Assembly (NCBI GenBank): GCA_036003045.1 | Contig: DASYSS010000083.1 | Location: 1-32,962, forward strand | Source of the DNA: Gemmatimonadaceae bacterium | Lineage (GTDB): Bacteria; Gemmatimonadota; Gemmatimonadetes; Gemmatimonadales; Gemmatimonadaceae | Length of the DNA: 32,962 bases | Direction: 5' to 3' | Shown: piece after piece, positions 3,324 to 10,270 of the stretch | Position numbering within the stretch: position 1 is the first letter of the stretch | Layout of the letters: each line of letters starts with the position of its first letter | Position numbers and translations under genes: made by a program | The notes under the pieces: model-generated | The model's input: only the letters and a program-made list of their open reading frames with translations | Told to the model about the DNA's origin: nothing | Database searches by the model: none

Positions 3324-4379
3324 GTGGCAACCGTTAGCGCGATTCTGTTTTCCGGCGAAGGCGCCGCTCCGCTCGAGCCGGTCGACCGGTGGCTCGAGGC
3401 GTTGGACGTCCCCGTCGTCGCGCTGGCGGACGTCGACACGTTGATGTCGATCGCGCTTCGCAGCCGTCCGCGCGTGGTCGTCTTCGACGCGCGCAAGGCC
3501 ACCGCACGGATCCTGGACGCGCTCCGCCGGCTCAAATCCGACTCGTACACGGGCATCGTGCCGGCGGTGGTGCTGACGGTGGACGACCCCGCCGTATTCC
3601 AAACCGCGTTCGAGGCCGGCGCCGACGAGGTGATTCGCGAGGGCGTTCCGCGGGCCGAGGTCGACGTGCGGTTGGCCGCGCTCCTGCGGCGATCGGACCG
3701 CGACCTCTACGTGCACCCGTCGACGCGCTTGCCGGGCGCCGTGGAAATCGAGGCGGACATCGCCCGGCGCCTCGAGTCCGGGGCCTTGTTCGCGGCGTGC
3801 TATGCGGACCTGGATCACTTCAAGGAGTTCAACGACCGATACTCCTATCACGAGGGGGATCGCGTCATCAGGATTCTCGCGCAGATCCTGCACGATGTGG
3901 TCAAGGGGCAGTGTCACGAGCACGGATTCGTCGGCCACATCGGCGGCGACGACTTCATTTTCATCGTGCCGCTGCCCGACGTGAACGACGTCTGCGAGGA
4001 AATCGTTTCGATCTTCGATACTCTGATTCCGTATCAGTATTCCGAGCAGGACCGGCGAGCCGGGTACTTCTTCGGCAAGGATCGCCGCGGCCAGCTTCAC
4101 CGCGTACCATTGATGACCGTCTCCATCGGGGTCGTGACCAACGAGCGCCGCCGGTTCGGTCACGCGGCGCAGGTGAGCGCGCTGGCGACCGAGATGAAGA
4201 GCTACGCGAAGACATTGCCCGGTTCGGTGTATTCGATCGACCGTCGCACCGACGCCGTGACGGAGCGCCCTGGAGAGCCGGAGCGGGCGCTGTCACACGG
4301 CGGCGCGGCGAGCGGTGGCGGGGGGGGGAGCGGAGAAGGAAACGCGCGATCCGAAAGTGGAGGAAAAAAGATCAAGTGA
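3324..4379 (+). CDS. Receiver-like/GGDDF domain protein (degenerate diguanylate cyclase family)
   Basis: A 351-residue cytoplasmic protein. Residues 1-130 resemble a response-regulator receiver fold: RPRVVVFDA places Asp55 at the phospho-acceptor position, but the usual paired acidic residues near the N terminus and the C-terminal Lys are not evident. Residues 135-320 form a GGDEF domain: YADLDHFKEFND with Asp162 and Asp164, YHEGD, and the signature at 207-211 reads GGDDF instead of GG(D/E)EF. No RxxD inhibitory site lies five residues upstream. Catalysis of c-di-GMP synthesis is therefore doubtful, and a signal-binding role is possible. The C terminus is a Gly/Ser-rich tail. The GTG start at 3324 is chosen because the fold begins there; no good ribosome-binding site is seen. 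It overlaps the next gene by GTGA. Confidence 0.8.
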   Translation: MATVSAILFSGEGAAPLEPVDRWLEALDVPVVALADVDTLMSIALRSRPRVVVFDARKATARILDALRRLKSDSYTGIVPAVVLTVDDPAVFQTAFEAGADEVIREGVPRAEVDVRLAALLRRSDRDLYVHPSTRLPGAVEIEADIARRLESGALFAACYADLDHFKEFNDRYSYHEGDRVIRILAQILHDVVKGQCHEHGFVGHIGGDDFIFIVPLPDVNDVCEEIVSIFDTLIPYQYSEQDRRAGYFFGKDRRGQLHRVPLMTVSIGVVTNERRRFGHAAQVSALATEMKSYAKTLPGSVYSIDRRTDAVTERPGEPERALSHGGAASGGGGGSGEGNARSESGGKKIK

Positions 4380-5425
4380 ACGTTTCGTGTCCGGAATGCA
4401 ACTCGGTGTTCCGCGTCGACCCGACCAAGGTTCCGTCGGGCGGCGTTCGCGCACGATGCTCCGTATGCGGCGGCGTCATCATCGTCGGCGCGGGCGCTCC
4501 GATCGAAGAGGAGTTCGCGCCGATCGCGAGGGCCGTGTCGCCGGCCGCACACGCGCCGATCCCCACACCGATTGCTGCGCCGATGCCGGCGCCGGCATCC
4601 GCTTCATCCACCGTCGCTCCGTCGAGACCGGCGCCCGCTGCGCCAACTCCCTCGACGGCGAGACCCGCGATCGTACCTCCAGCCGCGGCCGCGCCGTCGG
4701 CGATTCCGTTTCCCGCACCCGCGACTCGGCCGCCGCCCGCGCCGCAGCAACGTCCGACTCCGGCGTCGGCACCGCAGGCGCCTCCAGCTGCCCCAGCCGC
4801 GTCATCGCCGACTCCGTCGGCTCCGGCGTCCCGTCCGGTGGTTTTCGCGGCGCGTGGTCCCGCGACCCCGCCCGTCTCCGCCCGTCCAACGCAGCCGCCC
4901 TTCGCCGGGCCCGCCGGAACGCAGCGTCCGCCAATCGCACCGCGGCCTTCGGGCGCGATGCCGGTGCCACCGGCGGGGCCGCGCCCGGCGGTGCGGCCGG
5001 CGCAAAGTACGCCGGCTCGACCCGCGACACCGATCGTTCCGGCGCGACCGGTTCCGCCGTCGGGGCCGGCCGGAGGCGCGATCCCGCCTCGCCCGTCCGG
5101 CTCGATGCCGGCACAGCCCGCAACTCAGGGCGGCTCCTCACCGTCGACGCCGACGCGCGCGCCGATCAATCCGTTTCTCGCCAACGACCCCAACGCGAAG
5201 GCTCGTCGTTTGGCGCGCGCGCTCGTGTCCGATCTCGTGACGTACTTCCCGCAACGTCGCGACGAAGGGCTGCGCGACGGAACGTTGCGCGAGCTCTTTC
5301 GTGAAGAGATCAAGAAATCACAGGAAGAGTACGTCGAGCAGGTCGGTCGCGATTTCGCCGAATCGACGACGCACTTTCAGGACGCACTGAACGAGATTCT
5401 CGCCGGAGGCCAGCGCATCTTCTGA
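4376..5425 (+). CDS. Zinc-ribbon (MJ0042-type) protein with Pro/Ala-rich linker
   Basis: A 349-residue protein in three parts. Residues 1-36 are an MJ0042-type zinc ribbon (CPEC at 5-8, CSVC at 28-31). Residues about 50-260 are a low-complexity Pro/Ala/Arg/Ser linker, very likely disordered. Residues about 263-349 are a charged helical domain (NPFLANDPNAKARRLARAL, then DLVTYFPQRRDEGLRDGTLRELF) that looks structured but that I cannot name. The GTG start at 4376 overlaps the previous stop and follows GGAGG at 4359-4363. Similar ribbon-plus-linker proteins occur in bacteria with complex signalling, but the function is unknown. Coupling to the GGDDF protein suggests a shared regulatory role (inference). 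Confidence 0.8.
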   Translation: MNVSCPECNSVFRVDPTKVPSGGVRARCSVCGGVIIVGAGAPIEEEFAPIARAVSPAAHAPIPTPIAAPMPAPASASSTVAPSRPAPAAPTPSTARPAIVPPAAAAPSAIPFPAPATRPPPAPQQRPTPASAPQAPPAAPAASSPTPSAPASRPVVFAARGPATPPVSARPTQPPFAGPAGTQRPPIAPRPSGAMPVPPAGPRPAVRPAQSTPARPATPIVPARPVPPSGPAGGAIPPRPSGSMPAQPATQGGSSPSTPTRAPINPFLANDPNAKARRLARALVSDLVTYFPQRRDEGLRDGTLRELFREEIKKSQEEYVEQVGRDFAESTTHFQDALNEILAGGQRIF

Positions 5426-8210: not shown

Positions 8211-9467
8211 ATGATGACCCGTCTCGAGCTCTCGATCGCATGGCGTTACATGCGCAGCCGGCGGGGATCCCGCCTGCTCTCGCTCATCAGCACGATCGCG
8301 ATCCTCGGCGTGACGGTGGCGGTGAGCGCGCTCATCGTCATCATCGGCGTGATGGACGGTCTGCAGACGGATCTACGGGAAAAGATCCTGATCGGCAGCC
8401 CGGACATTCGCGTGATGAATTTCGGCGAAGATCTCGTGATGAACGACTGGCATTCGGTGCTGGACAAGGTTCGTCGCCAGAAGGGCGTGGTCGCGGCCGG
8501 GCCGTTCGTGCACACGCAAGCGCTCGTGCTCGCGGGACACCACAAGTACATGGAGGGCGTGTTTGTCGAGGGTCTCCCCCCGGAAGGACCGAACGCGCCC
8601 GAGGTGACGACGATTCGCCAGCGGGCCACGGCCGGCAACTTCCGGTTCGAGACGGCGGACGGGCAGCATCGCGGCGCGGTGCTCGGCTCGAAGCTGGCGG
8701 AAAAGCTCAACGTCACGCCGGGCATCGACTCGATCACCTTGCTCAGCATCGACCAGAAGCACATCGATCCGGTCACCGGGTACCCGACGGCCAAGTCGAT
8801 GCAGCTCGAGGTGACGGGCATCTTCGACACGGGGATGTACGAGTACGACAATTCGTACGTCATCGTCTCGCTCGAGACGGCGCAGCAGCTGGCGCAGCTC
8901 GGCAACGCGGTCACCGGGATCGAAGTCAAGACGCCGACTCGATGGGTGGCTCCGGACATCGCGCAACAGTTGATCGACAGCCTCGGCGCGCTGCGCGTGC
9001 TCGATTGGCATCAGCAGAACAACCAGCTGTTCAGCGCGCTCAAGCTGGAGAAGCTGGGGATGACGGTGATCCTGCTGCTCATCGTGTTGGTTGCCGCCTT
9101 CAACATCATCAGCACGCTGGTCATGGTCGTGACCGACAAGACGCGTGAGATCGGCATTCTGCGGGCGATGGGAATGCCGGCGCGGTCGATTCGGCGCCTG
9201 TTCTTCGCGCAGGGGCTGGTCATCGGCGTGGTCGGGACCGGCGCGGGGCTCGTGGTCGGGTTGGCCGCGGCCATCATCATCGGGCGGAACAAGCTCATCG
9301 CTCTCGACCCGACCATATATTTCATCGATCATTTGCCCGTCGCGACCCAGCCGCTCGATGTGACGCTCATCGTCGTCGCGAGCCTCGCGGTGGCCGCGCT
9401 GGCAACGGTGTATCCCGCGTTGCAGGCAGCTCGCCTGTATCCCGTCGAGGCGATCCGGCACGAATGA
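8211..9467 (+). CDS. lolC: Lipoprotein-releasing ABC transporter permease (LolC/LolE family)
   Basis: Inner-membrane subunit that extracts mature lipoproteins for transfer to the outer membrane. The 418-residue protein has the family layout: one N-terminal membrane helix (about 22-46, with SLISTIAILGVTVAVSAL), a large periplasmic domain (about 47-280) and three C-terminal helices (about 284-307, 330-358, 384-405). The FtsX-type motif VMVVTDKTREIGILRAMG lies between the second and third helices. Only one permease gene is present, so it may act as a homodimer; LolC and LolE cannot be told apart from sequence alone. Two adjacent ATG codons (8211, 8214) are possible starts. It overlaps lolD by ATGA. 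Confidence 0.92.
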   Translation: MMTRLELSIAWRYMRSRRGSRLLSLISTIAILGVTVAVSALIVIIGVMDGLQTDLREKILIGSPDIRVMNFGEDLVMNDWHSVLDKVRRQKGVVAAGPFVHTQALVLAGHHKYMEGVFVEGLPPEGPNAPEVTTIRQRATAGNFRFETADGQHRGAVLGSKLAEKLNVTPGIDSITLLSIDQKHIDPVTGYPTAKSMQLEVTGIFDTGMYEYDNSYVIVSLETAQQLAQLGNAVTGIEVKTPTRWVAPDIAQQLIDSLGALRVLDWHQQNNQLFSALKLEKLGMTVILLLIVLVAAFNIISTLVMVVTDKTREIGILRAMGMPARSIRRLFFAQGLVIGVVGTGAGLVVGLAAAIIIGRNKLIALDPTIYFIDHLPVATQPLDVTLIVVASLAVAALATVYPALQAARLYPVEAIRHE

Positions 9468-10270
9468 TGGTGCTCGAGGCTGTGGACTTGGGGAAGGAAT
9501 ACCGCGGCGGCGACGGCGGCACGATCACCGTCCTCGACGGCGTGAACCTGCAAGTCGCCCGCGGCGAGATGGTGGCCGTGGTCGGGGCGAGCGGTGCGGG
9601 GAAAAGCACGCTTCTGCATCTGCTGGGCGCGCTCGACGAGCCGACGCGCGGCGAGGTCTTCATCAACGGCATCCGATTGCCGGCGTCGCGCGCCCGCGCC
9701 GGGAGTGACGTTTCATCCGAGCGCGGCAGTTCCACTTCAGAGACGCGGGTGAGTCGGTTCCGCGAGCGACGGGCCCGCCGGCGGCTCGCCGGAAAGCGCG
9801 ATCTCGAGGTCTCGTCGCTTCGGAACCGGTCGGTCGGGTTCGTGTTTCAGTTTCATCACTTGTTGCGGGAGTTTACGGCGTTGGAGAATGTCGCGATGCC
9901 CCTTCGCATCGCCGGATGGGACGAGGGTCGCGCGCACAAGCGCGCGGCCGAGTTGCTCGAGCGCGTCGGCCTCGGCGCGCGAATGCAGCATCGGCCATCT
10001 GAGCTGTCAGGAGGAGAGCAGCAGCGCAGCGCCGTGGCGCGCGCGCTGGCCATTGATCCGGCCGTCGTGTTGGCAGACGAGCCGTCGGGCAACCTCGACC
10101 ATATGACGAGCGAACGGCTGCACGACTTGTTCGTCGAGCTTTCGCGCGACCTGGAGATCGCGATGGTGATCGCGACGCACAACAGGTCATTGGCGGCGCG
10201 CGCGGACCGCACCCTGCTGCTGGAGGACGGGCGTCTTACGCCGACCGACGTGCGGGAGGTCGTTCCCTGA
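9464..10270 (+). CDS. lolD: Lipoprotein-releasing ABC transporter ATPase LolD with an insertion
   Basis: ATPase that powers the LolC/E permease encoded just upstream. It has Walker A GASGAGKST (41-49), the Q-loop region FVFQFHHLL with Gln129, the signature LSGGEQQR, Walker B VVLADEPSGNLD and the H-loop VIATHN. At 268 residues it is about 35 longer than usual LolD. The extra length sits between the ING strand (67-69) and LRNR (119-122), roughly residues 74-112: a Ser/Arg-rich, low-complexity stretch where E. coli LolD has only a short helix. The reading frame is intact on both sides, so this is an in-frame insertion. The stop overlaps the start of mcsA by one base (TGATG). Confidence 0.93.
   Translation: MMVLEAVDLGKEYRGGDGGTITVLDGVNLQVARGEMVAVVGASGAGKSTLLHLLGALDEPTRGEVFINGIRLPASRARAGSDVSSERGSSTSETRVSRFRERRARRRLAGKRDLEVSSLRNRSVGFVFQFHHLLREFTALENVAMPLRIAGWDEGRAHKRAAELLERVGLGARMQHRPSELSGGEQQRSAVARALAIDPAVVLADEPSGNLDHMTSERLHDLFVELSRDLEIAMVIATHNRSLAARADRTLLLEDGRLTPTDVREVVP

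Follow-up and report, generated by a model that had tools for sequence, protein, structure and literature searches.

Does the arginine-rich segment within the ATPase LolD of this Gemmatimonadaceae bacterium serve the transporter, or is it sequence that the protein tolerates? The segment lies in a contig stretch of 32,962 nucleotides, referred to here as the window. Below we establish its length, frame and place in the protein, follow it through the family and the phylum, compare its composition with that of neighbouring genes, and weigh the explanations for its presence.

An additional 36 codons in lolD

The reading frame that carries the segment (Table 1) has no internal stop, and its best NCBIfam model is TIGR02211 LolD_lipo_ex (E 9.1e-80), with a score of 267.3 bits against a cut-off of 307.75 and a match that is split into two stretches on either side of the insert. 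In sequence comparison, LolD chains are its best solved relatives, and the LolD proteins of LolCDE structures (7arh and 9rlj of E. coli; 9w35) and of Aquifex (2pcj) are among the top sequence and structure matches, with 9rlj_D, chain D of LolCDE, at the head of the structural ones. These proteins share with window LolD the fold, the ATPase motifs, the side helix and the Q-loop. The initial annotation had described the Walker, Q-loop, signature and H-loop motifs as intact, and indeed all ABC ATPase motifs are there (GASGAGKST at residue 41, Q129, LSGGEQQ at 181, VVLADEPSG at 201 and H239), while R120, the counterpart of E. coli R85, is invariant in an alignment of 42 sequences (alignment A1).

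Table 1. Features discussed in the text, with positions in the window
Feature	Position	Strand	Basis
LolC/E-type permease gene	8211..9467	+	TIGR02212, E 4.5e-99, 332.2 bits (cut-off 362.45)
lolD, lipoprotein-releasing ABC transporter ATPase, 268 aa	9464..10270	+	ORF list, NCBIfam profile, structural match
Zone holding the 36-codon in-frame insert	9671..9787	+	36-residue gap in compared relatives
Side helix, residues 113-122, equivalent to E. coli LolD S78-Q87	9800..9829	+	Offset 35 (query 117 = residue 82 of 7arh_F)

The permease gene overlaps the start of lolD and is the sole strong LolC/E match listed for its genome (next E 7.7e-11). Because this single strong match adjoins lolD, the ATPase probably serves the lipoprotein transporter, and the gene appears to be the only lolD of the genome. 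In all six genomes of the genus, a single LolC/E-type permease match is strong (E <=1.5e-97; next listed E 6.5e-13), which suggests a transporter with one permease type instead of LolC plus LolE. All six score below the TIGR02212 cut-off. Downstream of lolD lie a gene with a UVR motif, an ATP:guanido phosphotransferase gene and an 829-residue ORF, which we take to be McsA, McsB and ClpC, respectively, and the upstream neighbour is presumably LysS.

Counted from Walker A up to and including the Q of the Q-loop, window LolD has 89 residues, compared with 53 in 79 of 80 related loci and 54 in the remaining one (L037). The net gain is thus 36 codons (108 bp), in frame, which bears out the insertion of about 36 residues proposed by the initial annotation; the extent given there (9683-9799, residues 74-112) is correct within a few codons. 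Other comparisons return the same figure: the other 41 sequences of alignment A1 share one 36-residue gap at window residues 70-105, the BLASTP alignments of the reading frame with five congeners and one further near genome each have a single 36-residue gap, and 9w35_C, which is without these residues, pairs its residue 71 with query 72 and its residue 80 with query 117, a difference of 36. E. coli LolD, too, is of the short form, as the initial annotation had stated. The edges cannot be placed exactly (left 9671-9680, right 9778-9787): by sequence, residues 73-108 fit as the insert equally well (GIRL / LAG flanks).

Distribution among relatives

Is the insert shared with related bacteria? The 80 related loci had been picked by short exact peptides, some of them adjoining the insert site, and could favour the short form, and we therefore treat surveys of the family and the phylum as the main evidence. 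With short-form LolD as the query, a match at E 1e-50 was obtained in 137 of 138 family genomes; in 130 of the 138 the best row reached E <=2.4e-66. All but two of these strong rows (128/130) start at query residues 1-10 and differ in length by a net 0 or +1 codon over the aligned span; the two others belong to the window genome, where the row starts at 59, and to G012, where it starts at 85 and the frame is broken. The phylum survey yielded matches at E 1e-55 in 146 of 150 genomes, 53 of which are within the family. Outside the family 93 genomes matched, and in every one of the 92 that have a row among the matches listed (G200 is the one without) the row starts at 1-16 and the net change is -1 to +2 codons. 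The insert is also absent from all five congeners (G001-G005), whose LolD is 78-84% identical to window LolD over the matched part and is accompanied by the same neighbouring permease gene.

Twelve genomes that lacked a strong LolD row, among which a LolD with the insert might go unnoticed, were rechecked at E values up to 1e-38, a threshold that shorter pieces could escape. Four of these (G067, G221, G013 and G116) have a lolD that runs into a contig end past the site, without insert in any of them, and in G217 a partial LolD row at a contig start begins after the insert site. Only rows of at most 51% identity were obtained from G032, G084, G100, G152, G153 and G200, whose LolD is presumably missing from the assembly. 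Four of the twelve thus allowed a verdict on the insert, the other eight being these six, G217 and G190. In the LolD of G012 (L126, G012:C261:2900-3700) the upstream part is out of frame, and one base ahead of the Q-loop is unknown; this broken frame is probably an assembly fault, and we counted G012 as neither long nor short form.

Among all genomes that could be judged, the insert is restricted to the window genome, the one genome of its species in the survey. The extra stretch is accordingly not a feature common to all LolD proteins, the outcome that the initial annotation had named as refuting its view of a distinct insertion. The same annotation had held that conservation of length and basic pattern across the phylum would speak for function and presence in one strain for neutral expansion; since no other judged genome has the insert, the survey result points, by that measure, to neutral expansion. 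Against this reading counts that LolD is otherwise almost constant in length at this stretch, so that free variation of the site is not seen within LolD. A narrow and partial literature search on LolD insertions in Gemmatimonadota and on LolD loop insertions gave no report of such an insert.

Composition and possible sources of the inserted DNA

The segment had been described as rich in serine and arginine, and residues 73-108 do contain 11 Arg and 8 Ser in 36, with a net charge of +7. At the DNA level the insert has a flat GC profile of 0.69/0.78/0.78 over codon positions 1/2/3. Overlapping windows of 36 codons from five neighbouring genes have mean values of 0.67/0.42/0.84, and not one of these windows is as high as the insert at the second position; at the third position the insert is ordinary in comparison with these genes. 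None of 2262 overlapping coding-frame windows from six genes, a set that omits the LolD windows touching the insert, has at least 11 Arg in 36 codons. By contrast, of 12968 open 108-mers drawn at random from the window, 1751 reach this Arg content and 2871 have second-position GC at the level of the insert. An Arg content that occurs in open random 108-mers and is absent from coding windows marks the basic pattern as of the type given by GC-rich DNA in a wrong frame, and the insert looks like generic GC-rich DNA in a non-native frame and not like an evolved protein domain.

Where could this DNA have come from? No donor was found in the own genome, the five congeners, plasmids, phages or the window, nor as a peptide. 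With 40 candidates scored per genome, the search for a second DNA copy returned, apart from the insert itself, short matches of about 14-45 bases, the best at E 0.0076 in the own genome and, among the matches listed, at E 0.00125 in the congeners. The best other match to the insert peptide has E 0.095, plasmids gave weak short matches in 10 records (best E 0.03), and phages gave one record with 29 bases at E 0.009. An origin as a partial duplication of LolD was rejected, as local alignments were no better than those of shuffled sequences (199/200 and 169/200 shuffles scored at least as high on the two strands); duplication of another part of the window fared likewise (34/40 and 29/40). Tandem repeats in the insert zone amount to just one 11-nt unit in 1.9 copies (9772-9792). 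The predicted RNA fold of the insert is no better than that of shuffles (z +0.93; 164/200 shuffles at least as good), and aligned to its own complement the insert scores 38, the comparison being with the shuffle mean (33.4) only. Rfam gave no match in the insert zone at the gathering score. The only Rfam match in the window is a 5S rRNA gene at 8-124, at the start of the contig, which may break in an rRNA operon.

Structural setting and weighing of the explanations

By the alignment offset, the insert directly precedes the side helix (alpha2), in the loop between beta5 and alpha2. In E. coli LolD, the side helix S78-Q87 touches the coupling helices of LolE and LolC through S78 and R85 (PMC11671585). 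The proposal that the insert lies near the surface meeting the permease is reasonable in this light, as the insert abuts the counterpart of that helix; the further suggestion that it alters coupling or membrane contact may hold but has no support here. A single-chain model of LolD built from alignment A1 has a mean pLDDT of 85.7, with 189 of 268 residues at 90 or above. Values fall below 50 at residues 77-91, 93-95 and 99-108, which is weak evidence of disorder, as no other sequence in A1 covers the insert. In the model a helix spans 92-123 and runs into the side helix, with residues 99-108 of that span below 50; short-form LolD folded without an alignment reached a pLDDT of 39, too poor to serve as a control for this helix.

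We consider it most probable, at roughly 0.7, that the extra segment is a lineage-specific insertion of non-coding-like DNA that is tolerated in a surface loop of LolD. A single event, presumably an illegitimate insertion or else a replacement, would have added 108 bp net to the loop that joins beta-strand 5 to the side helix, with the frame kept and the new stretch open by chance; GC-rich DNA in a non-native frame would by itself give an Arg-rich peptide. The inserted residues would then form a mainly disordered, solvent-exposed loop of near-neutral effect, and the ATPase core and coupling surface, with core, motifs and side helix intact, would still work. A parallel that counts for this reading may be HisP (1B0U), which has a beta-hairpin insertion in the beta5-alpha2 loop relative to FtsE (PMC7468199). 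We equated the two loops via an FtsE alignment (query 119 = residue 78 of 6z4w): HisP, like window LolD, would thus be an ABC ATPase with additional residues between beta5 and alpha2, although these form a hairpin there and a low-confidence, possibly partly helical segment here, and sequence kinship is not implied. Against pure disorder counts the modelled helix, by which part of the insert may be structured, and the absence of a donor match counts against the stated origin by insertion.

Could the long form be an artefact instead? A local assembly error or chimera, with a true lolD of the usual short form, seems unlikely to us. The genome is a draft of 106 contigs with 4.29% contamination, and the long form occurs in this one genome; furthermore, of 20000 random 108-mers drawn from the window, 12901 were open in one frame, which together with a one-in-three chance of keeping the frame makes an open, in-frame result expected about one time in five, so not a rare one. 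Such an error has to be reconciled, however, with flanks that are both in frame and match the congeners, and a chimera between contigs would tend to leave a second copy, of which the 40 candidates scored in the own genome gave none. A mobile source is hardly probable at all. Rickettsia palindromic elements insert in frame into genes, and a clean in-frame insertion of discrete length would suit a small mobile or repeat element of this kind, but neither the own genome nor the five congeners yielded a further copy among the 40 candidates scored per genome, there is no palindromic or stable fold and no Rfam match at the insert, plasmid and phage matches are weak and short only, and a GCCGG repeat found at the edges has a spacing of 109, not 108, and so shows no target duplication.

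A functional, lineage-specific element, in which the Arg-rich half prolongs the side helix without a break and lies along the inner leaflet or the cytoplasmic loops of the permease, tuning the coupling of ATPase and permease, is in our view distinctly unlikely. Its position directly before a helix that contacts the coupling helices, its charge and the modelled helix over 92-123 would all fit such a role, whereas its absence from every other judged genome, a composition unlike the coding sequence of its neighbours and the low confidence of the single-chain model over the insert argue against it. Very unlikely is the more specific version in which an Arg-rich side-helix extension, gained from formerly non-coding DNA and contacting membrane or permease, adjusts coupling in an apparently single-permease-type transporter; this would place de novo sequence inside a presumably essential ATPase, the lipoprotein transporter being essential in E. 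coli (PMC11671585). The tolerated insertion that we favour leaves knowledge of lipoprotein transport unchanged. If real, it is an example from nature in which the loop preceding the LolD side helix has taken up 36 random-like residues, which would suggest that this loop is open to tagging or extension.

Elsewhere in the window, the LysS, permease, UVR-motif, McsB-like, ClpC-like and Omp85 ORFs show no comparable insertion relative to six near genomes, the largest being 10 residues (LysS versus G024 only). Compared with single genomes, a few other window ORFs have gaps of up to 25 residues, including overlapping frames that are probably not genes and the length-variable ORF 3389-5425. The start of this last ORF overlaps a GGDEF-domain ORF (3324-4379), and near genomes differ in the length of its part from the zinc-ribbon (residues 332-363) onward; the real start of the gene is probably close to the zinc-ribbon.
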